The notes under the pieces: generated by a model
The model's database searches: none
What the model was told of the DNA's origin: nothing
The model's input: the letters and a program-made list of their open reading frames with translations, nothing else
Shown here: piece by piece, positions 2,336-29,873 of the stretch
Position numbering within the stretch: the first letter of the stretch is position 1
Layout: each line of letters begins with the position of its first letter
Assembly: GCA_028673005.1 (NCBI GenBank)
Contig: CM054120.1
Location: 57,472,057-57,536,056, forward strand
DNA: 64,000 nucleotides
Direction: 5' to 3'
Source of the DNA: Tanypteryx hageni
Lineage: Eukaryota > Arthropoda > Insecta > Odonata > Petaluridae
Program-made: the position numbers and the translations under genes

Positions 2336-3355
2336 TCATTTGCGGGTTAGAGGTTGTTTTGCTTTGACCTCCTTGGCCACATCTGGCTGCTTGATATCTG
2401 CACAACAAAAAGATATAGAAAAATTAAAGTATAGAAATCGATATATGGCGAATAGGGTTACTAATAACTCCATATAAACCATTTAAATAATGAATAATAG
2501 AGCCTATGGTTGGATTTCAACAAATGATTCCAAGTACCTTACAGTGATTTCAACTTCTTTATTTTCATGTATCACGATTGGTATTCAATTTAAAAAATTT
2601 AATCCAGTAATGTTGCATATAGAAATAAATTCAAAACTAAACCAGCGTTTTCCAATTGTAGAACACGTGCAACTCGAGGAATTTTGTGTCCCCGGGAGAG
2701 ATAACACTCCATCGCCTCTCTCCGTATAAGTTTTTTGAGATATGAGTAAATGATAATTAATTATGCAGTCTGTAAAAACTACTGAAATTAAAAATAAAAG
2801 GAATGATATCGGGATTATAGCCTGTTTCGCGATGTAAATTGGTATCCAATATTTGTTCACTTGCAAGTAATGCAAAGGTAGATGATCGTGATAGGGACCC
2901 CGAGACTTAGACGGCCCGGGTATCCGCCCGGCTCTCCCGTACGTCGCTCCGGGTCTCTTAGGAGACTCGGCAAACGTTGAATGTTCTGCAAGAATTGTTG
3001 ATTCTGATATATTAAAAAGCAAAATTTCATTTTAGGAATTTTTTCGCATTAAATGTTTTTAACAGGCGCTTTTCGCGCTAATATTTGTATAGTTTTATGT
3101 CGTCGACTCACTTCGTTCTCCACGATAGTTCAGTGATAGTATACCAATAATACAAGCGGATCACACGAGTTCGATCTCGGTCAAGGCAGTATATTTACTT
3201 ATTCTCAATTTCTACATACCTTTCCACTCTGCGGGTAAGTGATTCGGATTCTTTGTGTCTGGTTTATTGTCCACTGCCTTTTCGTTGTGCGGATTGCGCT
3301 GTGGTGCTCCTTTTAGTGGTACACCATTGCACTTGGATTTATTTTGTTTATCCAT
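2336..3355 (-). CDS. Small basic two-exon protein, copy 1 (unknown family)
   Basis: I do not recognise this protein. Coding exon 1 is 3355-3220 (ATG at 3355-3353, donor G|GTATGT) and exon 2 is 2397-2336 (acceptor tgttgtgCAG, stop TGA at 2338-2336). Phase 1 is kept across the intron, giving 65 residues starting MDKQNKSKCN and ending KQPLTRK. It is Lys/Asn/Pro rich with net positive charge, no signal peptide, no hydrophobic segment and one Cys, so probably disordered and intracellular (inference). An AATAAA (2269-2264) lies about 70 bases after the stop and is present in the other copies. A TTTCTGAAATTTTA stretch just upstream of ATG looks like the acceptor of a 5' UTR intron, with AG shifted in this copy. 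The start is supported because MDK, the splice sites and the frame recur in copies 2 and 3. Confidence 0.6.
2670..3115. repeat. Interspersed repeat block inside intron of copy 1
   Basis: Bases 2720-2960 match 32030-32240 of unit D (aaaaggaatg, then gcacgatatagattggta-like and aatgtaaaggtaaatgatcg-like strings) and partly 26190-26280. It lies outside the small-gene locus in unit D, so it behaves as a mobile or separately duplicated block. Class unknown. Confidence 0.45.
3116..3190 (+). repeat. tRNA-derived relic in intron of gene copy 1
   Basis: On the plus strand, antisense to the gene, a stretch resembles a tRNA (closest by eye to Gly or Asp): A-box-like tagttcagtgatagtat at 3126 and B-box-like gagttcgatctcgg at 3167, about 40 bases apart. 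No clean cloverleaf forms (the acceptor arms do not pair well), so it is not a working tRNA gene; a SINE head or tRNA pseudogene is likely. Weaker equivalents lie at 10030-10085 and 26318-26388. Confidence 0.5.
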
Positions 3356-4542
3356 GACTATATTAAAATTTCAGAAAAAAATATCCAATTGATAAAATCA
3401 AACATTTAGAAGTATCATTAAAAAGCATCTACATAATACAATAAAATATAGACCAAAAGACATATATTCCTATTAGAATATATTAACAAAAAACGACATT
3501 CCCTATACCCGAAAAACTTAAAACTATAAAAAACGAATGAAGTAAAAAGAAGATTGATTTATACATTAGGTGCAGCTTATTACTATCACTGGTTATTGTT
3601 ATCAACTGTCTATTGCAATCAGCCGCGGAATTGAAAAAGCATATCTTGTTTTGAATATTTTGTTTATTGTAATTGTCACATTAATCGTCTCCCACTGTAT
3701 TTGAAACGAAGAAATAAATTTGAATATGTGAAGGTGTGTTTAATAACTCAAAAACCTATCCATTAAATTCATGAATGAAATTTAAATTAATTTAATAAAA
3801 AATGGGCGAGCGAAGCGTGCCGTTAGACGAAGTTGGGATATTGAGCAGAGAAACTGGTAATGAAGTGCAATTCGTACTGCTAAATCTCTCATTATCGAAC
3901 TTGTTGGAGTAGCGTAAATCATTTCACAGCGTCGAAAATGCTATAATTCCTACAAGTACCAATTACTAATTTTGAATACAACTTTATAATATTATACCAA
4001 AGAACCGATTCGACCTTATTGCAAGTTAATGTAATCTTTAAGTTTAATAAATCGCGTATAAACCAACGGAGTACGCATTTATTTAATTGGACGCGTTCTA
4101 GGAAATTTTATAACGTGAAGCTTAAATACATCTCTTCGCCATAAATATCCCCCAAAGGGTATTCGTCGTTAGGGGGATTTCACTCTATAATAAGTGCACT
4201 GTTGAATGCGCGAATAATCAATGTAAACTTGCTATTTAAATGGAATATATATTCGTTCCTTATCAGTCAGTGTAAGTGCGGAAGAAAAAGTGCGATTCAC
4301 AGCGACAAAGTATCATTGTGGAACCCGTATTTGAACCGATGCCAAACTTTTTTCTATGCCGTACACAGGACAGATACGTCGATCTCTTATCGCTCTCAGG
4401 AAATAGACGCAATGGAAAGATGAACAGATATTATTGCGAGAGAAATAAAGCACTTTCTACTTGGAAAAAATGTGACAAATCTTTTAGATGCCAAAGACGT
4501 GATAATAATATGTGGTGAATTTGACACTGCACACTAGTATTC
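3356..4542. other. Upstream region of gene copy 1
   Basis: No open frame is conserved between the units here. A block with tatttaaa and gaatatatattcgttcc at 4236-4262 is conserved in all four units at a similar distance upstream of the small gene. Read on the minus strand it contains a TATATATT string that could be a core promoter (inference). Confidence 0.3.
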
Positions 4543-4790
4543 GGGGAAACACACAAAACTCTCTGAAGATTCCCTTGACCCTCCTTTTCTCCACTTTCCG
4601 TCCGCCATTCCTATCTCCCTCCTTTATTCCCTCTTCAACCTTCCTCCCCCACGCCTTCCATCCTTTATCTTTCCCTCCATCCTTACTCTCGCCCTCCATC
4701 TTTCCTCTCTTTTCCCTCCCTACCTCAGCCCTCTCTTTCATACCTCCTTTCACCATGCTTCCCTTCTCTTTTCCTCAGCCTTACATTAGT
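4543..4790 (+). repeat. Pyrimidine-rich low-complexity tract
   Basis: Nearly pure C/T on the plus strand with ccctccatcctt-like words. It marks the right part of duplication unit A, as at 11200-12070, 27905-28440, 36545-36800 and 39650-40320. Open frames across it are compositional. Confidence 0.8.
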
Positions 4791-5436
4791 TCTCTTTTTC
4801 GTTTTTACCATTTTTCTTCCTTAAAACTCTATAATTAAAATAACATCTAATTTAAAAATTTTAGAAAATGATATTTTCTACGATGTTTGTTTGAAGCTGT
4901 TTTCCGTAGAATGCATTTTAAGAGATATTGTAAAAATCCTTTTTAAAATTTGTTTCAGCTACCACTAATATACTACATGGAATCAACTTTTGTGAACAGT
5001 TTGCGTCTTAGTAACACTTCTTAGTCTTAATAGTTCCGGCTTCCTGGCTATACCCAATATCAGAAGTTTACAGTATAAAATTTTGTCCTTGGTAATTTCG
5101 TTGATTTTTTCACGCAATTCATTATATGATTTGATATAATTTAAATATTTGTATTAGAAACATTCCATGTATGGAGAGAATGATGAGATGGATACATCAG
5201 ATCTTTTTAATAGAAATGTGAGAGAACTATTTTTATGTTGATATCGTGGATGCGACTCAAAATGGCAAGATCTCTCACTATATTTTCTCTTAATTAAAAC
5301 ACAAATCATCATCTTAATGTTTTTTCATCCCTATTTCATTATCCTTTTACACTCTGGCCGCCCGATTGCACGTATCATTCTCCTCACAACTCTTTTTTCC
5401 AGATTCATCTATTGGTTATATAGAGTGATGATCAAC

Positions 5437-5640
5437 TTGGGAGTTGGAAGAGAGGAAATACACAGAACGAAGGAGTAGAGGAAAAATGGTGGAGAATTAA
5501 GAATGGAATAGTAAATGTGGCGGAAAGGGAAATAGGATACAGGAAATGCAAGAGATCAAAGAAACCCTGGGTAACAGGGGAAATGATAGCAAAGAACACA
5601 ACCGTCAGGTACCTGATAAAAGGGCTGGATGAGGGGACGG
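5437..5640 (+). pseudogene. RTE-like LINE fragment (EN-RT linker)
   Basis: Translation gives EKWWRIKNGIVNVAERE followed by GYRKCKRSKKPWVTGEM. This matches the spacer between endonuclease and reverse transcriptase in RTE/CFDP2-like LINEs (pattern W..iK..i...ae...G....krkkpW.t.E). A frameshift or stop lies upstream near 5475. Only about 200 bases remain, directly left of the Helitron array. Confidence 0.65.
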
Positions 5641-5689
5641 ACCTGGGGTTCAACAAAGATGAACTAAACGAACTAGGTGTTGTAGATGA

Positions 5690-8058
5690 GAGTTCTTACC
5701 TAAGTGACATGTGTTTGACTCCAGAAATTCCAAAATTTGCGTTTTTTCCCATAAGAAAAGCATTGCGCCATTTTTGTAAATTAATTTTGGGCACTTGCCC
5801 GTAAGGTAGAAAGATGAAATTTTCAGTGTTTTTAGATGGCCGCAATATCTATTAGGAAATAATGTAAATTTTGCTTACAGTGTCTTGGGTTCGACTCCGG
5901 AGACCCCGGAATATCTCCCATAAGTTAGCATGGGAAAACGCCATCCAGTGTGTACACTAATAAGTTTAGGATGCTTAAATTTTGCAAGATTATAGAACAT
6001 TTCTCATAATTATCTATAAAAATAGAAAATTTTAAAATTGTAAATTTTAGGGGGTTTTTTAACCCCATTTGGACATTTAAGTTTAATAATTTTTTAGGGT
6101 TGAGCTAGGAATCTGCAATTTTGAAATTAATTACAGAACAGTGCATTTGCACAAATAAACATTTCAATCTCTCCATATATATATTGCGGCAACTGTTAAA
6201 AATGTTTAAATTTTAAACAATTAGAAAAAAATTATTTTATTTCTAGAAGTGCTACAACTTTAAAAATTGGCTGAAATGTGTAGAATTATTACCCCATAAT
6301 AGAGAAAATGTGAAATGTATAAAATTGCAACATTTGGGGATTGTTTTAAACTATTATTTTTATATGTGGGAAAAACGAATATCGCTGCGGAGGTGAAATT
6401 TTTAGAATTAATAGAATATTTGTAATGATGAAATATCCGTCTGAAAAATCAATGTTTTTTCAAGGTGAGATGAAATGCTTGCAGTATGCAAGCACCTTCT
6501 ACTAGTATGTTATATTCTCCTCCTCCTCTGTAAGAGTCGTCGATATATAATGATATATAACATATAGGAGGTTACTAATGTTTAGGCACTTCCAGAAGTG
6601 ATGGAAACTTAAAATTTTTTTCATGTGTAGTATATTGTGCAAAACCGACCAGAAAAAACGAAAATCTTGAAAAAGAGCAACAATGCGGCCGTTAAAAATT
6701 CGCACTTGTTTAAACAAATTTTTATGGTTTATGTATTTCCGAATGAGCTACGGTGCTGAAATGTTTTTTTAGAGGTAGAATTTGTAAAAAAACAAAATAG
6801 GGATTATACAAATTTTGATATTTGAACTTGTTTGGCAGTTAAAATTTCTTAAATTTTAAACAAATAGATAACTATTTAGGTACTACCGGGCGAGGTAGTG
6901 TGCTGAAATTTTCAAGTTATATAAAATTTAGTCTTTTTAAACAAATAAACATCTCAGAGTAGTTATAAATTTTTTATTGCGGCCGTTAAAAATTGTTTAA
7001 TTTTAAACAATTAGATAAATGTTATTTCACTTCTTATTGTTCTACAATGTTAAAATTTGGCATAAATGTGTGGTATTATTAACCCAATGTGGAAAACGTA
7101 TAGTATTTCTAAAATTGCAAAAATTAGCGATTGTTTTACTTCATTATTGTTCCATAGGGAAAAACGAAAATCGGTCTCGAGGAAAAATCTTTTGAATTAA
7201 AGAAATATTTCTTATGATGAAATATCTCTCTGAAAAATTGATGTATTTTCAAGGTGAGATTAAATGCTTGCAGAATGCAAGCGCCTTTTACTAGTATAAT
7301 TATATCCTCCTCTGCAAGAAACGTCGATATGTAATGATATATAACATATAGGAGGATACTAATGTTTAGGCACTTCCAGATAAACTGGAGATTCGAAATT
7401 TTTTTCTTAGCTAGGATTTTGTGCAAAACCGACCAGAATAAACGAAAATCTTGAAAAAGTGCAACAATGCGGCCGCTAAAAATTCGCAATTGTTTGAACA
7501 AATTTTCAAGGTTTATGTATTTCCGCATTTGCTACGTGGTTGAAATTTTTTTAAAAGTTGAACTCTTAAAAAAAAACGAAATTAGGATTATACAAATTTT
7601 GATATTTTAATTTGTTTGGCGGTTAAAAATTCTTAAATTTTAAACAAATACATAACTCTTTAAGTACTACGGAATGAGCTAGGATGCTGAAGTTTTCAAG
7701 TTATTTACAGAATAGCATATTTGCATAAATAAAGATTTTAATTTTTCATAAATATATTAGGGCGGCTGTTAAAAATGTTTAAACTTTTAACAATTGGAAA
7801 AATATTATTTCACTCATAGAAGTACTACAACTTTAAAATTCTGCAAAAATGTGTAGCATTAATATCTCATAATGGAAAAAATATAAATTTTTTAAAATTG
7901 CAAAGTTTTGGGATTGTTTTAATCTATTATTTTTACATAAGGGAAAAACAAAAATCGCTCCGGAGGTGAAATATTTGAAATTAAAAAAATATTTGTAATG
8001 ATGAAATATGAAAAATGAATGTTTTTTTATGTTGCAGAATGCAAGCACCAACTACTAG
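5690..8058 (+). mobile_element. Head-to-tail array of three Helitron-like copies
   Basis: Three copies of a non-autonomous element end at 6505, 7294 and 8058. Each end has a short hairpin (tgcttgca, 3-base loop, tgcaagca, with small variations), a ~7-base spacer, CTAG, then a host-side T. This is the 3' signature of Helitrons. Spacings between ends are 789 and 764 bases. Copies share ggaggatactaatgttta and gtgcaaaaccgacc. The first copy has extra 5' sequence (5694-5990) also found at 30360-30640. No Rep/helicase frame is present. Single copies lie at 29810-31191 and 40815-41588. Confidence 0.75.
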
Positions 8059-9674
8059 TACCTATATATTAGTAATAAATTCTTGTTTCCTTTTCAAATA
8101 TTAAAATCCGCCTCATTTCGAGGAGATTTACAAATAGTTTTTTTAATTATCATCTTTGATCACCGCCCTCCCCCAAGGATGAAGCCTGGCCGGCTGTCGA
8201 GCGACGGGATTTGTCGTTTTGTAGCAAGTCTCGAGCATATAGGTCTGGTTCTTGTTTAACTGTCGTGCAGGATTATTAAAAATCAGATTGTTAGTCGTTT
8301 TGTTTCCTTACTTTAATGTCGTACATAATGTTTGATTGAAACATTGTATTATTGACGCGATCAGATGTTTAAAGAGTACAACTTATTGAAATTGAGGGCT
8401 GTCTTCTATAATAGATGTTTTTCATATCAGCAATTAATTGAAGTACATTATTGCATAAAACGTATTTATTTTGTGATACACTATAGCACATTCCTTTGAA
8501 TAGTTATTTCTGATTATGTCTCTCTTTCCTATTATAATTATTATTACGAAATGAATAATACAAATAAGCTATCCCTTAAAATTTGAAAAAGTTGTAATAA
8601 ATTTAAAATTGGAAATTAAAACAATGTACCCGGGCGAACTTCCTAAAGGGAAATAAAATTTCCTAGCAATAGAGTTCACTACCTCAAATTTAAAGGAAAA
8701 AAAAACCAATAGACAAAGCAACTTGGCGAAGATTATTTTAAGAAACGGTATAATAGTTTCTTTTAACACTAGAAGACGCAAACCATTCCAATGACGTTTC
8801 CACAGCGATGGACGTATTGAAACTAATTCGATCAAACTGGTCTATATCGATGTCACCAATGAGATATGTCAGGGTGTAAGAAACGTTGAAGGGGAAGGGG
8901 ATGAAAAAAGTGGTGTTAGAATTTTTACTCCGTTCTCAATGCGACTTAACCAAATGTAGGAATGACTAAGAATCGGTGAAAAAAAAAAACAAAACCGGCT
9001 AATGTGGTTTCCATATCAGTTTTTCTCCGTTTGAGAATGCGAGATATATTTGTCGATTATTATAAGGATTTACTTTTTAATGTTTTTATCTTATACGGGA
9101 TAGTTTCTGTCAACCAATTTCCTCGGTATACTTCTACCGTTTAAGCGGCTGGTAATCTGCCGTGTAGTATTTTTGGAAAAAAGTATTTCCTTATTCAACA
9201 CGGATGCTTTGCATGCATACCGTCATTCAGATTATAAAACTTTAATATTTTATATCTTTTTTCCATTAAAAATCTAGATATATTCACCGTTCCCCATGTG
9301 TATTTATTTGAATGGCTTTTTACCATATACAGTCGAGTCTCCAATTTTATAAATGCTGAAACTGACACTCATAGCCTGTTATTACGAACCGTAAGCTTCC
9401 CTACGCTGATATCGCAGGTTTATAAGATTCTTATAGGCGTTTTTAATTTATATATCAACTATCTTTGATGATATTATGTCCATTTAAGATTAAAATAAAA
9501 AATAAGCAAAAGGCCGCTATAAATATTTCCGCGCGTAATAAGTATTATCGGTGGCACTTATTGGATATAAATAAGAAAAGAGCTTATAACTGTTTAAAAA
9601 CATTTTATTTATCTTTTTTACTGTAAACTACATCAGGAAACTTTTATAGGAGCTTCATTATTCGAGCATTATCT

Positions 9675-10248
9675 TCATTTGGGAGTTTCTGGTTGTTTGT
9701 CTTTTAACTCCATGGCCACAACTCGCGGCTTGATATCTGCACAACAAACAGTTAAGGAAAAATTAAACTATACAGATCGATATATAGCACATAGGATTAC
9801 TCAAAACACGATAAAATCAATTTAAATAATGAATAATAGAGCTTATGACGGGATTTCAACAAATGATTACCAAGTACTTAAAGTGATTTCAACTTACTTA
9901 ATTTCATGCATCACGGTTGCTATTCAATTGAAACATTTAAATCCAGTAATATTGCATAAAGAAATATAATCGAGAAGTTATAATTTCTATGAGACACGGG
10001 TGGCTCGAGGAATTTTGGCTTCCCGGGTGAGTTAGCACTACAGTGCAAGCGGATCACACTGGTTCGACCTCGGTCAGGGCAATATTCTTTCTAATTCACA
10101 ATTTCTACATACCTTCTCCCTTGGCGGATGGGTTAGTAATATCCTTTTTATTGGCTCCCATTTCCACTGATTTTTTGTTGTTGGGATTTTTCTGTTGAGC
10201 TTTCTTGGCTCGCGCAACATTGGACTGGAATTTAGCATGTTTATCCAT
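9675..10248 (-). CDS. Small basic two-exon protein, copy 2 (unknown family)
   Basis: Paralogue of the gene at 2336-3355. Coding exon 1 is 10248-10113 (136 bases, exactly as in copy 1), donor G|GTATGT; exon 2 is 9736-9675 (62 bases), acceptor tgttgtgCAG, stop TGA. The 65-residue product begins MDKHAKFQSNVARAKK and ends DKQPETPK. It is Lys/Gln/Asn rich, net positive, Cys-free, with no signal peptide or membrane segment. Only 15 of the first 45 residues equal copy 1, although lengths, phase and stop position are identical. An AAATTTAG|GATCGTC just before ATG is a good acceptor for a 5' UTR intron; the 5' exon itself is not identified. An AATAAA about 70 bases past the stop is retained. Confidence 0.6.
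10030..10085 (+). repeat. tRNA-like relic in intron of gene copy 2
   Basis: Only the B-box half is clear (tggttcgacctcgg at 10060); the A-box half is degraded. Same position relative to the gene as in copies 1 and 3. Confidence 0.35.
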
Positions 10249-11199
10249 GACGATCCTAAATTTCAGAAAAAAATATCCAATTTTAAAAAGTAAACACTTG
10301 GAAGGATCATTAAATAGTGTCTATATAATACAACAAAAAACGTAATAAACGTTATATATCCCTATTAGAATATAATATCAAAAAGCTACAAACAGCATAC
10401 CCGATAAACTTTAAACTATTAAAAAAGTAAATGAATTTAAAAACCGCTAGATTTATACATTAGGTGTTGCTTGTTTCTATCACTGGGTGTTTATCATCTG
10501 GTAATCTTAATCAGTTGCGAATTTCCAAAGCAGATGTTATTTTAGATGATATTTTTTGTTGTAATTTTCACATTAATTAATTACTTTTAATACAATTTAA
10601 TAATATTATCCCAAAGAACCGATTCTACCTTACTGTAAGTTAAAGTGATCTTAAAGTTTAAAAAATCGCGAATGAAACTTCGGAGTGCCGCTTATTTAAT
10701 TGAGGTCTATCGAAGTAATTTTACAATATGAGGCTTAAAAACATCTCTTCGCCATAATAATCGCCGTAATTGTATTCCTTGCAAATAGATTTCACTGTAT
10801 AATAACTCTACTGTGGTAAGATCGAGTAATTAACGTACACTTGCTATTTAAATTGAATATATATTCGTTCCTTTTCAGCCAATGTAAATGAGTAAGAAAA
10901 TTATAGTATTTCGAAAATTACTAAATCATTCGTGAAGATTGTATTATCACGTTCATATAACGTGTAATATCTTATAGCACTGTGCATAAAATACACATAT
11001 ATTGATACGACTGTAAAAATGACGTAAGAGAAAGACGCACAGATATTACCGCGAGAGAAATAAACCTCTACATCATACGTAAATTGTGACAAACCTTGTA
11101 AATGGCGAAGTCCTTATATATATCTGCAAAGAATACGACACTGAGTGCACTCTACCTCTCGTGAAAACACAAAACTTTCTGAAGATTCGGTGGAGTATG

Positions 11200-12070
11200 T
11201 ACATTATAGTGCCCACTTCCTCCTTCCATTCTCCTTCCCTCTAAGCTCCGCCCTCCATATTCCCTCCCTCTATCCTCCCTTTCTCTTCCCTCCCTCCTTC
11301 CTCTCTGTACCCTCCTTTTTCTTTCATCTTCCCTCCATCAGTCTCACTCGGTACTCCCTCTTTTCAATTTCACGCCCTCTTACTTTCATTCATCCATACC
11401 TTCTCACTACTCCCTCTTCACTCCTTAATTTTCTTTTTCCCTCCTAATGTTCAGATTTTTTTATAGTATTAATTAATTTTATTCTATTTAGTTAATCTCG
11501 TTTAAGATATCAATTGTATTATTAAATTGGCAATTTTTAAAACTATTACATGGTAATAATTACAAATTATTATTCCATTATTATTCCTCCACTCTCCCTT
11601 TACCACTTTCCTTACCTCATCCCTCTCTCCCTCCATCCTTCCTCTCCCCCTTCATCCTTACTCTCTCCCTCCAAATTCCCCTCTCCCTGCATCATTATCC
11701 ACTCCCTCCACCCTTACTCTCTCCCTCCATCCTTCTTCTCTCCCTTCGACCTTCCCTCTATCTCCATCTTTCTCTCTTTCTGTATCCTAACTCACTCCCT
11801 CCATCCTTCCTCTTTCCCTCCATCTTTCCCCTCTCTCTCCATACCTCTTCTTTTCCCCCTCTCTCCCACAGCACGCTTTTCCCCTCCTTTCTTCACCATG
11901 CTACTCTTCTCCTTCCCTCAGCCACATTTCTCACTCCCTCTTCAATTCTTTCTCCTTCCTCATTTCTTCTCTGCTTACTCACTATCTTCCTCCTCTCTCC
12001 ATCCTTCATTCCTCTCTCTTTTCTCTCTTACTCCTTTATTCTCCTTTTTATCTCCACCGTTTCTCCCATT
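11200..12070 (+). repeat. Pyrimidine-rich tract of unit B
   Basis: Two C/T-rich blocks (11200-11440 and 11585-12070) separated by AT-rich sequence that is the intact counterpart of the LINE insertion site in unit D. Words such as ctctccctccatcctt repeat irregularly. A 267-codon open frame across it is a composition artefact. Confidence 0.8.
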
Positions 12071-12379
12071 TCCTGTACGAAATTTTGAATATTTTAAAAT
12101 CTTCTTTCGGGAAAGCGTTTTTATATTTGAATCTTTTATTTCTACCAATTTTGAACTTTTTTCTTCATTCTTGATCGTGTTAGTAAACTGTATAGTCGTT
12201 GGTACCCTTAAGACACCTTCCATGACTATTTTATCGTTGTACAAACAAGTATTTAATTTTGTGTTATTTTTACGATGGAATTTGAATAAGTATAGTTGGA
12301 GAATATTAATAATATGTTTTTGCAATTTCCTGTTACTTTTATTAATTTCATAGAAAATGTTAAATAAAAATATAGTGAA

Positions 12380-12440
12380 AAACACAGTTGTTGGCACTGA
12401 CATGAATAGTTATTGACACCACGCTGCACAGTTATTGCCA
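12380..12440. promoter_or_regulatory. Cluster of transposase-binding-like motifs, left side
   Basis: Three near-copies of cagttrttggcac occur at 12384, 12404 and 12428, besides the terminal one near 12194. Related motifs at 14508-14600, 14697, 14748 and 15109 lie on the other side of the transposase. Inferred to be subterminal binding sites of the Tigger-like transposase. Confidence 0.45.
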
Positions 12441-12600
12441 CTCATTATTATAATCTAATTCAATTATCTTGATTAAACAAAATATTATTAATAAGCTAGT
12501 AATGGAAACATAGGACCATTCAATATGGTTTTAAATCATCTGATTGCATATTTAACTTTTAAAGAGCCTCAAAAAAACCTTTTTTTGGTGGTTTAGTCTG

Positions 12601-14455: not shown

Positions 14456-14499
14456 GATTAACATTAGTCGTTGTGATTTATCTAAAAGGATAGAAAAAA

Positions 14500-15279: not shown

Positions 15280-17211
15280 GTGCGAGTACCACCATCGCAG
15301 CGCCTGGACCTTGCTCGAGCAGACTGGCAGCACTTCCGTAAATTCATCGCGGAAAGGCTGCCGGTTGTGCCTACACCGCCCAGGACGCGTGAGGAGGCAG
15401 ACCGAATGGTTGACCTCACATCCACAGTCCAGCAGGCCATGGACGCTGCGATCTCGAAGGTGGTCGTGGCCAAGGTTATACGCATCGCCCTGCCCCGTGG
15501 CGTCTGGGACACCATCACCTGGCGCAACAGCGTGCGGCGGCGGTGGCAGCGCTACCGCACTCTGGACCTCAGGATCCAGTTGGACTCCCTCAACAGGACC
15601 GTCCGAGACATGTTGAGAGACGTGCGCTCGGACGCGTGGGAGTTACATCTCTCCACGCTTTCCCTGGAGGATCAGTCCATCTGGAAGACCTGCAGGAGGC
15701 TATGCGTAACCCAGCGGCGCGACCCCCTGATAGTTCAGGGGGACTACGTCGCGAGGTCTCCAGAAGAGAAAGCCGGGCTCATGGCGGAATACCTGGAGGG
15801 GGTATTCTGTCCTAACCCGGCTACAGCTGAGTCGGATTTGGTGGAGGACGAGATTGCGGATGTGCTGGGGACGCTCGACCGGGGTCCCCTGCTGGAGTTC
15901 CCTCAGTTCTCGGGGGACGATATCATTGCAGTGATTCGTCGCCTCGAGACGAGGAGGGTTCCGGGGGACGACGGCGTCCCCAATATCGTCCTGCGACAGC
16001 TTCCTGTTGCCGCAGTAGAATTCCTGGCCGCCATTTACAACGGGTGTGTCGGGATTCCATACTTTCCCTCTGCCTGGAAGAGGGCAAAGGTCATCTGTCT
16101 CCCGAAGAAGCCGGGGACGGAGGTTGGCCCCGGAGACATCCGGTCAATTTCTCTCCTGGCCGGATTCGGGAAGACCTTTGAGCGTCTTATCCAGAAGCCG
16201 CTGCAGCACTTTCTCCAGGAGAAGAACATTCTCCCGGACGAGCAGTTTGGCTTCAGGAGTGGGCACTCCACTACCCAACAACTGGGTAGAGTGACGCACT
16301 TCGTCACCGACGCCTTCAACAGGAACCACGCGGTCGCGGGGGCTTTCTTCGACATCTCGAAGGCCTTCGACCGCGTGTGGCATCCAGCACTCCTGTTGAA
16401 GATGGTTCGACTTCAGTTCCCAGCTTGGATGGTGCGACTTATTGAGTCGTACTTGCAGGGCAGGACGTTCCGGGTGTTTTGGCTCCGGGTCGGATCGGAA
16501 CTGCGACGCATCTGCGCCGGCGTTCCGCAGGGATCCGTCCTGGGGCCGATACTCTTCAACATCCTCACCCAGGATCCCCCCTGGGATTTTGGGTGGAACA
16601 CCAGTCTTTCCCTGTACGCTGACGACGCGGCGCTCCTGTCGCGTTCCAGCAAGAAGTACGCGGCTGTGGAGAGGTTATAATGCGCCGTCGACGATCTGTC
16701 CTCCTGGTATCGTCGATGGCGTATTGCGGTTAATCCCGCTAAAACCAGGGCCGTCGTCTTCCATCCTGGAATGGGAGCGCCGCCTGGAGTCGACCTGTCG
16801 GTGATGGGGACGGTCGTCCCCTGGAGTCCAGAGGTAACATACCTGGGAGTTGTGCTGGACCGGAAACTTCTATGGAAGCCTCAGGTTGAGAGTGTCCGCC
16901 GCAAGTCACTCGGGGCGTTATCCAGAATCCGTCCGATTCTGCGCCCGGATGTCTTGACGGCCGACACTAAGAGACGCCTCTACCTGAGCTGCGTGAGGCC
17001 CATCATCACCTATGCAGCTCCGGTCTGGTCTGGAGTGTCCAAGACCACCCTCTACAGGCTGCAGGTAGTGCAGAATAAAGCACTCCGGTTGATACTTGGT
17101 CGTAGTAGATACGACCATGTCGACCGGATGCATTTAGACGGAAACGTGGAACCCCTGGACATCCTCTTGCCGAGGATGTCTAAGGAATTCTACTGCAAGG
17201 CAGCATTATGA
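15280..17211 (+). pseudogene. Jockey-type reverse transcriptase with one internal stop
   Basis: One continuous frame runs from 15280 to 17211, interrupted only by TAA at 16678-16680. Visible RT motifs: KVICLPKKPGTEVGPGDIRS (finger region), DEQFGFRSGHST, GAFFDISKAFDRVWHP (first catalytic Asp), ICAGVPQGSVLGPILFNIL, and SLYADDAALL (YADD box), then the thumb region with YLGVVLDRKL and the C-terminal RLYLSCVRPIITYAAPVW. The FDISKAFD.VWH and AGVPQGSVLGP forms are typical of the jockey clade. Key catalytic residues are intact and the stop lies about 15 codons after YADD, so the copy is dead but recent. The endonuclease is missing through 5' truncation. Confidence 0.92.
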
Positions 17212-17303
17212 ACTCACGAAGAGGTGCGAATGCTAGGCTACATCAAGGCTAGGTGGTGGTATCGTTACAAGCGGCCCATTGCCAGCCTTGATGTGCAGGA
17301 TGC

Positions 17304-17361
17304 CCTCCCTTCAAACAAGCGTCCTCGCTTGTAGGGAGGGATATATGCCCATTTATGGGCT
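17304..17361 (+). other. Two stem-loops in LINE 3' UTR
   Basis: Stem 1 pairs ccctccct with agggaggg and, inside it, acaagcg with cgcttgt around a tcct loop. Stem 2 pairs gcccat with atgggc. Such structures in LINE 3' UTRs can be recognised by the RT; that role is inference here. Confidence 0.5.
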
Positions 17362-17560
17362 ATCGAAGTGCGCTAAGCTAGTTTTAAGAGTAGTCTCGCA
17401 TTAGCAGCTTAGCTGGAAATGCGACGTGGCCAGCCTCAGGCTGGAAGATCATGACATCTCTGGTACGGCACTCAGGAGACCCCTAAAGATGGCACTTGAG
17501 GAAGGTGCCGAAACATCGGTAGACAACATATTCACCTGGCTGGAAACCCGGGAACTCTTC

Positions 17561-18650: not shown

Positions 18651-18802
18651 GTTAATTAAATATTTTTATTTTCAAAATTAGTTTTCTTCATTCTTAGAAC
18701 CTCCAATTTTGATTGGTAATACTCTCGCTTCGCTTGGTATGCTGCTTTCTTTTCCTCGAGCATTTCCTTTTTCAACAGAAAAAAACTTCGTTTTGTTTTT
18801 TT

Positions 18803-19762
18803 TTATGCAAGACTCTCCCTTTCCTCCGTGCACAGCTTCTTCCTTTCTGCGGACAATTCAGCAATGTTATTCTGAGCATCCGCCATCTCAGAAATCTTCC
18901 TCTTCAGCTGCGGCCGATTTCTTTTTGCCCATGCCGGTTTCGCTGTAGTCGATGATTCTGAATGGACACTACATTTTCCCAATTCATTTTCATGAACCAC
19001 TGTAATTATGTCCGGTGTCATCTCTTGCCTCTCATTGTATGCTATTATTGCATTTGGAGTCGCTACTTCATTTGCAATAATTACTAAAACGAATAAAAAT
19101 TGTAATGGACAAAATGTAAGTTTCATGAATTCCAAGAATTTGTTTTCAAATTTGAAAGACAACTGAAGAAACATACCAATCTCATGACATCCCTCATCTG
19201 CTTCTTCCAAGACAGACGTATCAATTTCTTCAGAGACATTGCCTAAGAAAATAAAAATCAGCTTTAATGCTCATACAGCAGATATTGGTAATCACAATTA
19301 ATTACGATTCCCTAGCGTTTTCATAGGCTTCATTTCAACCATGTAAATATTTACGAGCTTATCTAGATATTCTGCATCAGAGTCCTTATTATTTTTCAAA
19401 AGCTCCGCTTGGTCCTTTATTACAGACCACAATTTCTCCACCGTTGGGTCTGATTTTGGGTCGAAAACACCTCCTCCCGTTTTGTAACGATTTACTCGAT
19501 CGTCCGCTATATCCTTCTTCACCTTCCTCTTAAAATTATCATAGAATGACTTTATCTGTTTCATATTCCTATGAGACACATTCACGTGGCTGTTGAACTC
19601 ATCCACTACTTTTTGCCACACATCTTCCTTTTTCTTAATACTGGTTCCATCTGTTCTTTTGTCTTCTATGATGGCACTATACTTAGAAACCACGTCCACG
19701 AAGACATTTCTTTCATTTGGCGTGAAGTTTAGGCCTCGGGAGCGTTTCTTCTCCGAATTCAT
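18803..19762 (-). CDS. MADF/Myb-SANT-like DNA-binding protein of a transposon, three exons
   Basis: Predicted exons: 19762-19306 (ATG at 19762; donor C|GTAATT), 19242-19177 (acceptor tttcttAG, donor G|GTATGT) and 19083-18803 (acceptor cgttttAG, stop TAA). Phases match (1 and 1), giving 267 residues. N-terminus MNSEKKRSRGLNFTPNE begins a Myb/SANT-like domain (residues about 10-100, with FTPNERNVFVDVV, WQKVVDEFN and QIKSFYDNFKRKVKKD), like the Myb_DNA-bind_5/MSANTD3 type. The C-terminus is charged and ends in a coiled-coil-like SEMADAQNNIAELSAERKK. After the TAA the same frame stays open for about 48 more codons (KKEMLEEKKAAYQAKREYY), so the stop may be a recent truncation. Such proteins accompany PIF/Harbinger nucleases. 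All splice sites look usable. Confidence 0.7.
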
Positions 19763-22700
19763 TTTTACAAGTTCAATTTTGTATACAAACAACTTCACGA
19801 TGTATTCGCGGATAACGTACTTCATTTGTTCTAGGGCTGAACGGATCTCCAATCCGGGGTCTGCGTAGTAACACTAGAGAGTATGAAAAATCTTGCGCTA
19901 AACTAAAACGGGCCGTTTAATAACGACTCGTTATTTTACTGAAGCACTCCTTGGTGAAATGCTAAAGAAATTAACTATACGTTATTTACTAACGACGCGT
20001 TAGATAACGGAAGGTTAGTCAGATTTTAATGGTGAAACCGGCCATAAGAGTGCAAGCCACTATACATTTTACCCTATTCACGTTTTAATAGCTTGACACT
20101 CACAATCAGACAAACGGACGGTAAATCTAGCTTTTATGGTTATTTTTGTGATTCATTAATTCTTTTAATCCTCTCATACTCTCCCTATTTCCAAAACCGT
20201 CCTTAAATCCTCCATTCTTTTACCTAACTCCCGTTACCTTTCCCACAATCCTTCATCCCATTAATATTTAAATGCTTGGTTAGTTTATTAGAACGTGCAG
20301 CACGTTCCCCATATTTTCATATCAGTGATATTGAATTTAGCTCATTCTGACTAATTTTAAAATTTTTAAATAGTATTTCTTATTTTTAGGAATTCCTTTT
20401 CGTCAATAACGCAAGCAATGTTATTTACATTGATTACTAATAAAGTAATTTCCCACTTTTTCCGTATTTCTCTCTTTTTCGTAATTAACGTCTTTAAAGC
20501 ACGCTTAAGCTTATATGGCTTGTAGTAGCAATAGAATTTCGAAGTTTAACAATGTAGTTGGTAGGCATGGCAACATTGCGTTAAGATTCCAAGATTTTTC
20601 CAATATATATCATTTAAACGAATTAGCAATTTCGAGGTGATGGCGAAAAAAGACGAATAGAATAAGAAACTTGAGTATGTATAATTTAGAATGGTCTCGA
20701 TTCGAAAAACGAAGATCTAATGTTTCTAATTTTAATTTCCAAAAGACGATGGACTGCACGTCGTAGTCCATTTTTTCTTGTTACCATCTTAGTAATACTA
20801 ATAATTCCCTGTAGTCGAACCCGAGTCGTTCCACCAAATATTGTTTCGTCAATGACTTTTGATATGTGAAACATGCAATCCTGGAATATTTTGAACAATT
20901 ATCTTTTACAGTTTTGGAGATATAAACAATTTGATGTAAATGATCACCAAACAACCAAATGAACGCTATTATTATAAAGGCGATACCGATTCCGAGTACA
21001 ACAATAATCGTTGCAATGGCACGACTCTTGTAATGAGTGATAAAAACTTCAATAACGCCAGTATTTACGCGAAATTTTAAGATATACGATCTTTAACAAA
21101 ATTTTTACGATAATAATTATAATCTTTATTCCTTTTCAGAGAGAATAGTCTAAATCCCGCTCTGATATTAAAATTCTATCAATAAGATAGTTTAATGAGC
21201 AAGAGAAAATTGTGTGCACGATAGATTTGAGATTGCCTTCGTAATTCATATGGTAAAGATAGTTTTTAAAATTTAATTCGGGATTATAATCTTCGCAAAA
21301 AAACCTTCCTGTAGAGCTCAGACCCAGTAGCAAGAGATTTCCAAAAAGTGTCATGAAAATTGGTCAATTTGTTCAAAAGTAAATAGGGGAGACATACAGA
21401 CAGAAAGACTGACAGACAGACTGACAGCAATGAAACTATAAGACCATTTTCATTCTGGAAAGTAGGTTAAAAACTCGATTCGATCGAGGACAACATTTAC
21501 TATAGGATAGTGTCGGAGAGCACTTACTTACTAGTTAAGGTTTTGGAGGAAACATTCGAGATTATTTTGAGTAAAACATCGCATATTTTGTTTATATCGA
21601 TCACAAAGATGGTTCTCTCAGCAAACAACAATTATAAATCCATATTTTTCTCTTTCATGGTCTTAGATGATCTTCGAGTTATAGATTTAAGAAATTATTC
21701 GGTTAGAGGACAACATTTACAGCAAGATGGTTCTCGAGTTCACATAATTACGACTTTTAATTTCGAGTATATAAAATTCAAGAACTGAGGAATCTTCCGA
21801 TACCGTTTCATGCACACTTCTCATTAAGAATTCCTTGGAAATCTTTGTGTATTCCTTTTATGGAGTATACTTTTCCATATTGTTATATTGAAGCAACATA
21901 GTTTATCATTGATAATAAGTATGCAATTTATCTTTCTGTAGAAATGTCGATAGAAGGTAATTCAAGGGACGGTGTATTTAGCCTCCTCCTCCAAGATATA
22001 TCGAAAACATAATAAAATATAAAAAATAACTTCGGAGAAAGGTACAGTTTTGCTCTATATATATTTTTGAATAAAACATTATGATTCTTTTTAAATATTT
22101 AAATCTTCATCCATTCGAAGAAATTTTCAAAAAGATTTTTATTTTAAACTTTGGTCACCTCCGCCCCTCCCCCAAAGATGAAGTATGGCCTGCTGTCGAG
22201 TGAGGGGTTTTGTGGTTTCATAGAAAGTCTCGAGCTTATAGGTATGATTCTTGTTTAACAGTAGTGCAGGATTATTGTTTCGAAAATATATTATTGCGGG
22301 AGGTTTTGTTAACTTACTTTTATGTCGTACATCATTTTATATTGAGGCATTGTATTATTAAGGTTATAAGATTTTTTAAAGAGTACAAAGTATTCAAACA
22401 GAGGACTGTCTTCTATATCAGAGAACGTTACATATGTGTCGTATATTAGGATCGGCTCGAATTTTTATATTTGTAATTTCAATAGAAAACTCTAGTTTTG
22501 GTTAAAAAAGGTCTAACGAAAGTGAAACTTGAGTTTTGGTCTCCTTTTTACCAATTTTCTTCATTAAAACTTCATAATTTAAAATTATATTAAAATGAAA
22601 ATTCTAGAAAATGTTATTCTCTACTACGTTTCTTTGAAGCTGTTTTTCCTAGAAAAATATTTTTAAACCCATTTAAAAATCTGTTTAAGTTACCACCAGC

Positions 22701-25700
22701 ATACCTCATGGAGATAACTTATGTAAACACTTTACATCTTAGTAACACTCCTTATTCTTATTTTTTGGGGATTCGTGACTATAAACATTATCAGAAGGCT
22801 ACAGTATGAATATACGTTTATCCTTTGTAAGGTCTTTGAATTTCCCACGCGGTTCCTTAAAATTTTTATTATCATGTAACGTCTTGTAATTTTTAGAAAT
22901 GATACATAAATGGATAACATCATATTTTTTTAACGGAAAAGAGAGAGGAATATCTTTCTATTGTTATAATGGATGCGACTGAAAAAAGCAAGACCTCTCA
23001 CTTGATTTTGGCTTAGTTAAAAGGCAACCATCATTTTTAAAATGTATCTCAATCCCTAGCACATAAATATTAGATAAAGTGGATGACCCGTTAAACGTAT
23101 CATTCTTCTCTCAACTGTTGTTTTCAGATTCATCTATTGGTGATGTTACAGAGTATCGATGAACTTAGGGGGTTTGCAGTTTTGTGTCTTAAACTTACTT
23201 AATACTTCCTGATTTTCTAATTGAGATAAACAAGTAGCACTGAATTTAAAATATGTCAGTCAACTATGAGCTCTTGCCTGCTTTTCAGTGTAAAAGTATG
23301 AATTTCATTTGGCGTAGTTTCTACGTTTAAATCCAGGGTCGGGTTGAGATTTAACCTCTCCATCCATATTGTGAATCTAATTATAATACTTTTAAAAAAT
23401 AATACAAGTTTCTTTGTATTTGTAAAACAATTTTATATGAAATATAAAATGTATAATTACTTATAGTACAGATAACAAAAAAAACTGTAGATTAGAATAT
23501 AATAATATTAAAAGAGTGAAGTCTTAAATAAGGATGAAATTCAGCCGTGAGTATTTTTAATATTTCGAAAATCGAACTTTGACGGGCAGAGATTATGACA
23601 AATTATATTAAGCTACATTGAATGTGTTTTCGTGAACACACAAGGTGTGAAAAGAATCATCTACAACGTTGGTATGAACGTACTTAAATACGTTTATATT
23701 TTTGTTGACACATGGCGTTTTATAAGTGAAAGTGGAATAGATTGACTTATCATAAATCAAGGTGAACGTAAAGATTTAGTTATAGTTACTTTATTTCAGG
23801 TGAGGTATATGCATATTATTTTTTATTGTTGGTTTATTGGTCGTCATCACATAAATCCTAAATAATACCTCCAGTTTTTATTCACGAAAAGAATTTCATA
23901 GCAGCCGATGTATATCTTATCATCTAAAACTACATGAATGCATTTAATGCACTATGGTTCTCACCGAATTTATTAAGTGGAAGTAAATTATTTTCAATTT
24001 CTGTTTAACGTCTAATAAGTACTAAGCTCAATAAAATACATATCAGCAATTAATTCAAGGATATCATCACACAAAACGTGTCTATTTGTGATACACGATA
24101 TCACATTCCCTTAAATAGTTATTTCTTTATATGTCTATCATTCCTATTACAATTATTGTTACGAAATGAATAATACAAATATTTAAATAAATGTTAGTAA
24201 AAAAAGGTTTTCGGTGCACGCTTTCAGTTGACTTATAATAAATTATTATTCTATACTTTCGACGTTGGACCAAATCTGCTGCTATCAGTAACTATGTAGT
24301 AGCTTACCGTTGAAATAAATTACTTATTGAAATTACAGTGAAATTAATATATAAAGGAGACCCGTTTACGCTGGGTTTCATTCGTTTACATCAAGTCGTG
24401 CAAAAATTTGTTTTCAACTCCGAAAAGCTAATTTTTTCGGAATAAATAAATATCTATTGGTCCCTATTTATCACTTTCAAGCCACAACTAATATCCCTTA
24501 AAATTTGAAAAATTAGTAAATAAATTTAAAATTGGGAATTAAAACAATATTCCGGATATTTCTTAAAGGAAAATAAATTTTCCCTGTAATACAGTTCACG
24601 ACCTTAAATTATAAAGATAAAATCTCCACACTTAGCTACTTAGCAAAGATTAATTCAAGATACAATATAGTAGTATCAAACTTATTTGAATGAAACTAAA
24701 ATAATTTAGCCGTAAAAGTGAAGGATATGAATAAAAATATATACCTCTCACCGTTCTGGTTTTAAAAACTATTGATCGTAGATTTGCTGTATCTTCACCT
24801 CTCAGAGTGAAAAACCCTGTTTCACAATTGGGAAAAGAATAATATTTACATGGAATGTTGATATAATTTCTTGAGCAAAGACATATCATCGATTATTCCC
24901 ACGGAAAACTAACCTGATGTAAATATATAATAGATTCTTTAAACACTACAAGACGCACACCACTCGAATGACGTTTCTACAAAGATGGACTTATTGGAAC
25001 TTCTAAGGACAAACATTCCAAGTCACCAATGCGAAATGTCAGGGAGGAGGAAATCTAGAAGGAGAAATGGATGAAAACAGTGGTGTGAGAATGTGTACCT
25101 CTTTCTCAATAGGACTTAACCAAGCCTAGACATTACTAAGAAGCAGTGAAAACCCAAAAGCGGTTCATGTGGTTACCACATCAGACTCCCTTCGTTTGAG
25201 AATGCAGGTTATATTCTTCGATTATTATAAGTATTTACTTTTATATCATTTTACTATTCACTGAATACTTCCTGCCTACTGATTTTCTCGGTATATTTTT
25301 CTAGGTTAAGGGGCTGGTAATCTGCAGTGTATTATATTTGCAATAAAATGTATTTGCTTATTCAACGCGGAGGTTTTGCATGCTTACCATCATTCAGATT
25401 ACAAATCTTATATACTTAGTATTTATCGTTCCCCATTAGAATTATTTGAAAGCCTTTTTAGAGGATTCGGTAAAGTCTCCATATATATTAACATTGAAAC
25501 TGACACTCATAGCCAGTTATTAAGAAATCAGAAGCTATCATTAGCAAATGCCGTAATATTATAAGATTCTTATAGGCGTATTTTATTAAAATTCACACTA
25601 TCTTCGATGATCATATTTTCATTTAAGTTTCAAATAAATAATACGCCGAAGACCGCGGGTAAATATTTAGGCGCGTATTAAGTATTGACGACTGAATACA

Positions 25701-25798
25701 TTGTGTTTAAGTAAGGAAAAAGCTTATAACTGTTTAAAAACATTTTATTTATATTTTTCTACAGTCAATTGTACCAGGAAACCCTCATGAGGGCTTCA

Positions 25799-26543
25799 TT
25801 ATTCGAGCAGTAGCTTCATTTGCGTGTTGCCGGGTATTTCTTTGTTAAACCCCTTGCCCATCTCTTGCAGCGGGATATCTACAAAACAAAAAGATAAAAG
25901 AATTATTATAGTATAGAAATCAATACATGGAACCTAGAAAACTAGGAAAAATCTCTTTTAATAATGAATAATGGAGTCTATGACTGGATTTCCTTATATT
26001 ATTACCAAGAAACATAAAGTTGCTCTAACGACTTTAGTATCATGGTATTCTATTAATCAATTTAAATCCAGTAATATTGCATAAATAAATAAAATCAAGA
26101 CTACATCAGCGTTTTCCAATTCTAGGAGAGAGGGGCTGCTCAAGGAATTTGTCTCCCCGGGAGATTTAGCACTCACCCCGTAAACGTTTTTTGAGATATT
26201 TACAAAGTACATGTTAATTTATTATACGCTCTTTATAAACCATTGAGATTAAAAATAAAAGGGATGAGATCGTGATTCTAGCCTGTTTTTTTAAGCCGCC
26301 GACTCATTTTGTACTCCACGATATTTCAGATATAGAATACCAAGCCATGCAATTGGTACACACTAGTTCGATCTTGGTCAGGGCAGTATTATATCTTATT
26401 CTCAAATTCTACATACCGATCCCCTTAGAGGGCAAGTGATTAGGATTCCTTTTTTTTGCTCTGTTGTCCACTGCCTGTTGGAAGTTTTTATTGAGCTGTT
26501 GCGCTATGTTGGCATAGGACTGGGATTGAGTTTTTTTATCCAT
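25799..26543 (-). CDS. Small basic two-exon protein, copy 3 (unknown family)
   Basis: Paralogue of the genes at 2336 and 9675. Coding exon 1 is 26543-26417 (127 bases, nine fewer than copies 1 and 2, so still in frame), donor G|GTATGT; exon 2 is 25878-25799 (80 bases), acceptor tgttttgTAG, stop TAA. The product is 68 residues, beginning MDKKTQSQSYANIAQQ and ending TQMKLLLE. It keeps NPNHLP, also present in copy 1. A one-base deletion in exon 2 relative to the others moves the frame past the ancestral TGA, giving a new C-terminus. Gln/Asn/Lys rich, positive, no signal peptide. AATTTTAG|GATCGTC directly before ATG is a good acceptor for a 5' UTR intron. Function unknown. Confidence 0.55.
26318..26388 (+). 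repeat. tRNA-like relic in intron of gene copy 3
   Basis: Counterpart of 3116-3190: ccacgatatttcag then tagttcgatcttgg at the same distance from the splice donor. Both box motifs are more decayed than in copy 1. Confidence 0.4.

Positions 26544-29839: not shown

Positions 29840-29842
<3 letters not shown>

Positions 29843-29870: not shown

Positions 29871-29873
<3 letters not shown>

Follow-up and report, generated by a model that had tools for sequence, protein, structure and literature searches.

Why should the coding exons of a small gene differ more between its copies than the introns and untranslated regions around them? Such a pattern is usually taken as a mark of positive selection. 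It was noticed in the window, that is, the whole stretch of 64,000 nucleotides from Tanypteryx hageni analysed here, in which a sequence-only reading had described three copies of an unrecognised gene. The many copies in one genome permit divergence to be compared within and between subtypes, and in this comparison the excess is old and missing among recent copies; it is seen at every codon position of exon 1. The family is, thus, a test case for positive selection against coding divergence preserved in the face of gene conversion.

The three two-exon open reading frames (ORFs) are present at the places described, all on the minus strand. The first copy, c1 (3355-2336), has a type 1 coding exon 1 (3220..3355; 45 codons plus 1 nt), which begins with MDKQNKSKCNGV, and a coding exon 2 (2336..2397), which ends in DIKQPDVAKEVKAKQPLTRK and the stop. 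In c2 (10248-9675), exon 1, of subtype 2a, lies at 10113..10248 and exon 2 at 9675..9736. In c3 (26543-25799), exon 1, of subtype 3a, is 9 nt shorter and in frame (26417..26543), and exon 2 occupies 25799..25878. As had been claimed, each copy keeps ATGGATAAA, the GTATGTAG donor, a YAG acceptor and AATAAA, with an identical phase at the end of exon 1. All three also hold an ORF, but the frame is not fully kept, as a 1-nt insertion in exon 2 of c3 shifts it to a different stop and a 68-aa product. A fourth copy near 35 kb, c4, is a pseudogene known from its exon-2 remnant (34972..35033, minus strand); its exon 1 is deleted, the acceptor is changed from CAG to CAA, and an in-frame stop is present. 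By self-comparison, with approximate boundaries and no strand assigned, c1 is carried by U1 (1..5215, cut by the window edge, with a LINE-like insertion at about 1310-2140), c2 by U2 (5216..12400), c3 by U3 (20000..28440) and c4 by U4 (28441..40331, with a reverse-transcriptase element at about 37-38.7 kb).

A putative TATA box, ATGTATAAATC, precedes c1 (3554..3566, minus strand), and the same motif occurs on that strand for the other window copies (10448-10460, 26731-26743 and 35326-35338); these are four matches in the window against 0.05 expected by chance. An Inr-like TCATTY lies 25-26 nt downstream. The exact motif is missing from the copies X130k, L003, L004, L029-L032, L037 and L043, and the promoter reading is, therefore, weaker there than in the window's four copies. 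A sigma-70 promoter scan was set aside as irrelevant to an insect. A 5'UTR leader intron is predicted for c1 (3358..3509, minus strand), with a candidate donor CGG/GTATAG at about 3508 and acceptor TATAG/TC at about 3358, and homologous candidate sites are found in c2 (10400 and 10257) and c3 (26686 and 26552). The 3' end motif with AATAAA is at 2232..2271 in c1 and at 9572-9611, 25712-25751 and 34868-34907 in the others (all minus strand), making four matches in the window where none is expected. We infer that the gene is expressed. Most dead copies of the family retain the splice and 3' signals; the copy L045 is without the usual donor word.

The predicted products are small (65-68 aa), basic and hydrophilic (GRAVY -1.1 to -1.6), and start with MDK-. 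The reported absence of a signal peptide stands; no ATG lies ahead of MDK in the predicted spliced leader of c1-c3, and the encoded protein is probably intracellular. In Pfam, c1 had no match and c2 none above the cut-off; in NCBIfam, c1, c2 and c3 had none above the cut-off; and among PDB sequences, which were searched with c1, none was found. The family is, thus, without a named relative in these libraries. Viral contigs queried with the 3' motif and the c1 protein gave no relatives. No tRNA or Rfam element reached the gathering threshold in the window, the single weak match in 2300-3700 having an E of 0.29. A weak tblastn hit near 8.2 kb had hinted that the unit holds a second gene; this was rejected, as the alignment had no convincing coding pattern by eye.

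How large is the excess among the window copies? For c1 and c2, the earlier counts were reproduced in exon 1 (50/136), exon 2 (13/62) and residue identity (15/45, ungapped), with a 3' UTR difference of 8/94 for the reported 8/95 or so; the 5' flank was recounted as 40/182 rather than about 35/185. Of the assertion that coding exons evolve about twice as fast as flanks, an excess over the flanks is confirmed for exon 1 of this pair, but exon 2 (0.210) equals the flanks. The exon 1 differences among c1-c3 are 0.368, 0.291 and 0.339 against a composition-adjusted expectation of 0.22-0.24, and among 142 background windows of 136 columns taken from inter-unit alignments, one reaches 0.339. The protein alignment of c1 with c2 has two further gaps of 3 residues each, and the codon-aware difference is still 45/126. 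A CpG effect was rejected, as exon 1 has few CpG (5, 3 and 2 in c1, c2 and c3), and so were clustered multi-base mutations, adjacent differences being near expectation (20 vs 18.2 for c1-c2).

The window's own insect genome (1.68 Gb) was then searched, and at least 88 copies were found, located on one unplaced contig and within a 2.6-Mb stretch of a single chromosome-scale contig. Most of them stand in four tandem arrays, with units near 4.0 kb in three and near 7.34 kb in one, and the rest are dispersed; a 481-bp stretch around c1 exon 1 is 93-95% identical to array units. In the C763 array, neighbouring units are 97.9-99.98% identical in a gapped comparison of 21 unit pairs (an earlier ungapped comparison of six pairs had given 0.785 and 0.968 in two). 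The copies sort into six subtypes, four of which have intact full ORFs; no intact copy is found among the four 2c-like ones, and many members of the family are dead. Inside the arrays, the ORF bears no mark of constraint. In the C763 and C9:58.4 Mb arrays together, the ORF variants are 16 nonsynonymous, 1 stop and 2 synonymous; of the 32 units, 12 have a stop at codon 3 and 2 a frameshift. Exon 1 of the remaining two arrays has 9 nonsynonymous, 1 stop and 3 synonymous variants. No purifying selection is detectable within subtypes.

On between-subtype branches, exon 1 evolved at 2.14 times the non-coding rate and within subtypes at 0.91 times (P 7e-8), where the classes were assigned after the non-coding tree was seen and the Fisher P values are nominal because the tests treat ML-inferred substitutions as counts. 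The ratios are 2.22 and 0.99 for codon positions 1+2, 2.00 and 0.77 for position 3 (P 5e-4), and a non-significant 1.71 and 1.26 for exon 2 (P 0.16). The branch ratio for c2 exon 1 is 2.97, and the excess is missing on two of the nine between-subtype branches. The rate tree and an earlier alignment set both left out c4 and L035, which have no exon 1, and L032 was in the earlier set but not in the rate tree; L003, L031 and L038 were left out of the trees, and L042 was aligned for the rate tree but is not in it. The C763 and 58.4-Mb arrays were represented by T05 and S02, and the 55.9-Mb array by L039. Within subtypes (13 overlapping pairs), pN is 0.041, pS 0.037 and non-coding divergence 0.047; exon 1 does not outpace non-coding DNA, and the excess is, therefore, old. 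When divergence between subtypes is binned by 17 bp, exon 1 starts at 0.19-0.20 over its first 34 nt and continues at 0.24-0.42; the value is 0.14 just 3' of the donor and is back to 0.26 soon after the exon 2 stop. Within subtypes, the exons do not stand out in the profile.

The sequence-only reading had taken the excess as beyond neutral decay and likened it to diversifying selection. The coding-limited excess is real, but that signature fails. The ML omega of exon 1 is 1.02 with free branch lengths, the acceleration at third positions is about equal to that at positions 1+2, and the data therefore do not demonstrate that amino-acid-driven diversifying selection is ongoing; strong current selection of this kind is ruled out, as recent pairs show no excess. 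An omega near 1 together with equal exon and intron divergence was to speak against that reading, and omega is indeed near 1, while the divergences are equal within subtypes but not between them.

What is proposed instead, tentatively and with a probability of roughly 45%, is that the coding subtypes were kept distinct by selection against a background of concerted evolution, which homogenised the non-coding parts. The gene, comprising a predicted non-coding leader exon and two coding exons, is tandemly amplified, and concerted evolution would have shaped its family alongside the duplication and death of copies. The six subtypes would go back to early duplicates. Between similar neighbouring copies, unequal exchange and short gene conversion may have repeatedly reset the non-coding parts, lowering flank divergence, while selection would have spared the coding parts and held the subtype differences; the coding DNA would therefore look about twice as old as the flanks. 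This apparent extra age would be seen above all in exon 1, at every codon position, between subtypes and not within. Later, type 1 would have been amplified into the four arrays and the mixed cluster copied, many copies having died since.

Conversion between subtypes was observed in one clear tract. L003 and L004 are of subtype 2b except across exon 2, where about 110 columns form a block that is type 1 at 15/15 diagnostic sites. In a cross-type test, 12 of 119 pairs were positive at an uncorrected P < 0.05, all with L003 or L004 and all over or just downstream of exon 2; these 119 pairs gave no sign of pervasive between-subtype conversion. Non-coding homoplasy is 133 against 104 +/- 10 in 60 tree simulations (maximum 131). 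This excess of about 3% of steps is far short of the required twofold loss of flank divergence, unless conversion was early. It also speaks against the proposal that divergence rises and falls at exon 1 within about 17-34 bp, as simple linkage to a selected site would give a less abrupt change.

Another reading, itself unlikely, is that positive selection acted episodically as the subtypes formed and then relaxed, the flanks being neutral and unhomogenised. The excess closely tracks coding DNA, pN/pS is 1.2 among the intermediate 2a/2b/2c pairs and 1.4 for 3a vs 3b, and fixing branch lengths at those of non-coding DNA gives an omega of 2.1 (likelihood ratio 16.5 vs omega 1). However, the fit improves when branch lengths are free (2 dlnL about 13 for 3 df), and omega is then about 1, the acceleration extends to third positions, and pN/pS is 0.79 for type 1-type 2 (0.79-0.93 in deep pairs).

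Divergence might also be apparent, without selection for it: a GC-richer, weakly constrained exon 1 would seem accelerated through base composition, compensating indels aligned as mismatches, mild flank constraint or chance. GC sites are faster than AT sites, c2 and X130k can be aligned by eye with a nearby one-base deletion and insertion, and exon 1 behaves like non-coding DNA within subtypes. Freer gaps reduce c1-c2 from 0.368 to 0.292 (38/130), a value still above all 71 non-coding windows; c1-c3 is not set apart from non-coding DNA (20 of 122 windows are at least as high; Fisher P 0.07), and three of the 47 bins of non-coding DNA are as diverged as exon 1 bins, at 0.30 or more (maximum 0.333). 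Composition alone was nevertheless rejected, as the excess survives adjustment and the matched ratio remains 2.03 between subtypes and 0.89 within them. The excess is found in gap-free between-subtype pairs of equal exon length (c1-X130k, 0.338; X130k-L005, 0.206), and flank constraint should have slowed the flanks within subtypes too, which is not observed. This explanation is already weakened and improbable. That the family is in essence a satellite-like array, its ORF being a by-product (or coding for an RNA) that survives in the subtypes by chance and youth, agrees with the half-dead C763 array (10/23 units intact), the lack of purifying selection within subtypes and the signals kept by most dead copies, but is very unlikely, as the other three arrays mostly keep their ORFs (8/9 intact; exon 1 intact in 13/13 and 19/20), divergence tracks the coding portion of exon 1, and ORF survival by chance alone across deep subtypes is unlikely (2.9-6.3% of lineages in neutral simulations with indels and the ATG kept; 4.9-11.6% without indels).

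High divergence in exons and low divergence around them has parallels. In the Hessian fly SSSGP families, small tandem insect genes have a diversified coding part with conserved promoter, UTRs and intron, for which the authors invoked selection and short-tract conversion homogenising the non-coding parts (Chen et al. 2010, PMC2955719). Here, coding divergence exceeds that of UTRs and intron between subtypes (exon 1, 2.14-fold) and not within. The SSSGP products are secreted and share a conserved signal peptide, and their dN/dS exceeds 1 where alignment is possible (PMC2955719), whereas the present products are hydrophilic and MDK-initiated with no signal peptide, omega is about 1 and flanks are about 20% diverged between subtypes; no sequence relation is claimed. 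Exon 5 of the human red/green opsins, an example of a divergence peak in duplicated genes undergoing gene conversion, is a selected exon that likewise combines high divergence with low divergence of the duplicates' flanking introns (PMC3924837). As at such a conversion peak, all site classes are raised here over low flanks (2.22 at positions 1+2, 2.00 at position 3). The opsins are two genes of known function, in contrast to many copies in six subtypes, where conversion between subtypes is seen directly in one tract, beside a slight homoplasy excess. ASSET, a segment switching in snake-toxin exons, involves radical change of short exon segments in a gene family and was described for secreted venom proteins (PMC2711939); no relation is claimed.

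A further, rather unlikely extension would make this a lineage-specific conflict or germline gene, amplified to about 100 copies within a single domain of 2.6 Mb. Its subtypes would be antagonistic or specialised, and the coding exons of several of them would be actively shielded from the homogenisation going on around them, exon-sized conversion tracts being the unit of exchange. Stellate-like conflict families are marked by a location on a sex chromosome, germline expression and a suppressor. Sex-linked families of this kind are rapidly evolving genes that have been tandemly amplified (PMC10618873), and the present family likewise has many tandem copies, at least 88 in the four arrays and dispersed.

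The three gene copies in the window (c1, c2 and c3) lie on the minus strand, with coding exons 1 and 2 at 3355-3220 and 2397-2336 in c1, 10248-10113 and 9736-9675 in c2, and 26543-26417 and 25878-25799 in c3. Their predicted products of 65, 65 and 68 residues all start with MDK and are basic (pI 9.8-10.0). Exon 1 of c3 is 9 nt shorter, and a 1-nt insertion in its exon 2 places the C-terminus in another frame with another stop; the conserved frame proposed from the sequence alone thus holds for c1 and c2, but not for the end of c3. In a fourth copy, c4, near 35 kb, both exon 1 and the acceptor are gone. The diverged repeat units holding the four copies are about 70-88% identical and interrupted by transposons.

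A common TATA-like motif is present 5' of all four copies (4 matches against 0.05 expected by chance), with an Inr-like TCATTY 25-26 nt past it; the exact motif is missing from nine genomic copies. The window copies likely contain a leader intron, judging from a donor 143-153 nt 5' of the ATG and an acceptor, TTTAG, just 5' of it. In c1, the AG of this acceptor is lost and a new AG is found 5 nt closer to the ATG. Three copies elsewhere in the genome (L003, L004 and L036) have lost this acceptor unreplaced, and in all three the ORF or start is broken. The 3' end around AATAAA is almost invariant among copies. From these elements, we infer a gene structure with promoter, leader intron and 3' end. 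Once the putative leader intron is removed, the leader of c1-c3 is devoid of any ATG, and the products are hydrophilic (GRAVY -1.1 to -1.6), in agreement with the earlier statement that a signal peptide is absent. No match above the cut-off was obtained for c1, c2 and c3 in NCBIfam or for c1 and c2 in Pfam, nor any for c1 among PDB sequences. A comparison of such small, basic, amplified proteins with germline chromatin or conflict genes may serve as a lead only. A tRNA-like stretch with A- and B-box-like words was seen by eye on the plus strand at about 3060-3200 in the c1 intron, and also in c2 and c3; it is reported by neither ARAGORN nor Rfam.

The genome (1.68 Gb, 1022 contigs) is marked as that of an insect by 7tm_6 odorant-receptor domains, which are insect-specific as far as is known. 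It holds at least 88 gene copies, the searches giving lower bounds: four tandem arrays of units and 20 dispersed copies (21 minus three, L030-L032, that are members of the 57.3-Mb array, with L043 and L044 added). The 3' motif has 41 exact matches, 16 on C9, the chromosome-scale contig holding the window (C9:57472057-57536056), 25 on the unplaced contig C763 and none on any other; all 74 protein matches listed are likewise on C9 (55.8 to 58.4 Mb) or C763. The C763 array (1-93 kb) has 23 complete units, each about 4,027 bp long, adjacent ones being 97.9-99.98% identical (21 pairs). The array at C9:58.36-58.41 Mb, which adjoins a 500-N gap, has units of 3,886-4,027 bp, of which nine were read. 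There are 16 exon-1 matches at C9:57.30-57.36 Mb, at intervals of about 4.0 kb except one, and 20 at C9:55.85-56.00 Mb, mostly spaced by about 7,340 bp. Copy c1 is closely related to the array units: the stretches compared match at 93-96%, save one at 88.6%. The 3' motifs of c1 and c2 are also 7,340 bp apart, which may reflect coincidence or shared origin. A mixed-subtype cluster is seen at C9:56.96-57.07 Mb, C9:57.24-57.37 Mb, in the window and at C763:117-150 kb; it appears to have been duplicated en bloc, with reversed orientation to the left of the window.

It had been claimed that the exons diverge faster than their flanks. This is true of exon 1 between c1 and c2, where 50 of 136 positions differ, against 0.19-0.23 for upstream and intron sequence and 28/193 for the 3' flank; of 142 background windows, only one is as high as 0.339. 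With free-gap realignment the value is 0.292, and all 71 windows are still lower. The claim is not confirmed for exon 2 of this pair (13/62) or for exon 1 between c1 and c3, where 0.291 is equalled or exceeded by 20 of 122 windows and is thus unexceptional. Codon-aware alignment gives 0.357, 0.302 and 0.376 for the three pairs. When the DNA is aligned with MAFFT, the 9-nt indel is the sole one of exon 1, where 1.7-3.1 would be expected for each pair; two further gaps, of 3 residues each and in c2, appear when the proteins are aligned. In neutral simulations with indels, such an ORF is retained in 2.9-6.3% of lineages when the ATG is required to persist, and in 0.8-2.9% when it is not.

The excess was found to lie between subtypes: 1 (c1 and the arrays), 2a (c2), 2b (X130k, L003, L004), 2c (L005, L033, X149k, probably c4), 3a (c3, X146k, L034, L036) and 3b (X118k, L043, L044). 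On a 20-copy non-coding tree, the ratio of exon-1 to non-coding change is 2.14 between subtypes and 0.91 within (134/65 versus 581/663 inferred substitutions, nominal P 7e-8); the corresponding values on an earlier tree of 18 copies were 2.17 and 0.93, or 2.03 and 0.89 when composition-matched. All codon positions take part, with 2.22 between and 0.99 within at positions 1+2, and 2.00 and 0.77 at position 3 (P 5e-4). For exon 2, the ratios (1.71 and 1.26) do not differ significantly (P 0.16). The exon-1 excess is uneven, being about 3 on c2 and the type 2 and type 1 stems, and nil on the branches to all type 3 (0.98) and to 2a+2b (1.00). Across 15 between-subtype pairs, the divergence of exon 1 in successive 17-bp bins is 0.19, 0.20, 0.36, 0.24, 0.27, 0.38, 0.42 and 0.37, falling to 0.14 past the donor; 3 of 47 non-coding bins are at or above 0.30 (maximum 0.333). 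Exon 2 (15-bp bins) reaches 0.33, with 0.06 just past the stop and 0.26 slightly further. The within-subtype profile (0.02-0.11) has no exon peak, and c1 differs from the consensus of the C763 and 58.4-Mb arrays by 5.1% in exon 1 and 5.0% in the intron.

The diversifying selection suggested by the sequence-only reading is not borne out by dN/dS. Pairwise counting gave 0.72, 0.95 and 1.03 for the three window pairs, the bootstrap intervals of dN minus dS all including zero, and a three-taxon codon model of exon 1 gave an omega of 1.02. With branch lengths fixed at non-coding values omega rises to 2.1 (likelihood ratio 16.5 against omega 1); however, the model with free lengths fits better, and so synonymous sites appear elevated too. 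Intact ORFs were found in 10 of the 23 C763 units (the others comprise 12 that begin ATG GAT TAA and one with a 1-nt deletion) and in 8/9 at 58.4 Mb. Exon 1 is intact in all 13 copies read at 57.3 Mb, and the full ORF is present in L030-L032 of that array; at 55.9 Mb exon 1 is intact in 19/20, and L039 and L042 were seen to carry the full ORF. Seven of the 20 dispersed copies have the full ORF (c1, L029, L037, c2, X130k, c3 and X146k); in L043 and L044 the ORF is shorter, closed by an exon-2 stop that X118k also has, and no 2c-like copy is intact. No constraint on coding variants was seen in either array set, with 16 nonsynonymous, one stop and two synonymous inside the C763 and 58.4-Mb arrays, and nine, one and three, respectively, in exon 1 inside the other two.

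Because the excess involves all positions, exists only between subtypes and is centred on coding DNA with omega near 1, the exon-1 pattern is tentatively read as a divergence peak under gene conversion (probability roughly 0.45), in which selection would preserve coding differences while conversion resets the surrounding DNA. One conversion tract is evident in L003 and L004, which are almost wholly subtype 2b and carry an exon-2 block of type 1 at 15/15 diagnostic sites, spanning at least 110 alignment columns with limits inside a stretch of about 215. On the tree, the non-coding parts show 133 homoplasy steps, against 104 +/- 10 in simulations. Among 119 cross-type pairs, 12 have an uncorrected P < 0.05; each of these includes L003 or L004, and all lie within the block or shortly downstream of it. 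Such scarcity of inter-subtype tracts, as well as the sharp edges of exon-1 divergence, speaks against the conversion peak and favours episodic selection on the protein, which we rate as less likely than the conversion peak. A divergence peak of this kind is described for opsin exon 5 in a review (PMC3924837). A mix of selection and conversion like that proposed here was put forward for Hessian fly genes by Chen et al. (PMC2955719).

The window also contains a La-like multi-exon gene (57020-59550, minus), matching Lupus La protein among PDB sequences (E 1.5e-4), with no La match in Pfam. It is strongly diverged and, by eye, interrupted by a stop in one of the later exons, and is possibly a La paralogue or pseudogene. 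Pieces of transposons include a DDE_1 transposase (13111-13833, minus), reverse transcriptases (15406-16680 and 37204-38673, both plus), a Myb/SANT protein (19298-19825, minus) and a hAT dimerisation region (47791-48090, minus); 1823-2149 (plus), with no Pfam match, is presumably LINE endonuclease-like. Another repeat, about 780 bp long, is tandem within units (6113-8070, 30763-31200, 40850-41600); its long frame at 7136-7528, the only one tested there, has no Pfam match. A CT-rich minisatellite (CCTCTCTCCCTCCATCCTT and variants) occupies roughly equivalent positions across units (4652-4709, 11219-11867, 27937-28409, 39681-40194) and is a possible recombination focus. The nearly perfect inverted repeat at 29866-30203 (338 bp, 96%) is probably a foldback element, with related copies near 42.8-44.5 kb.
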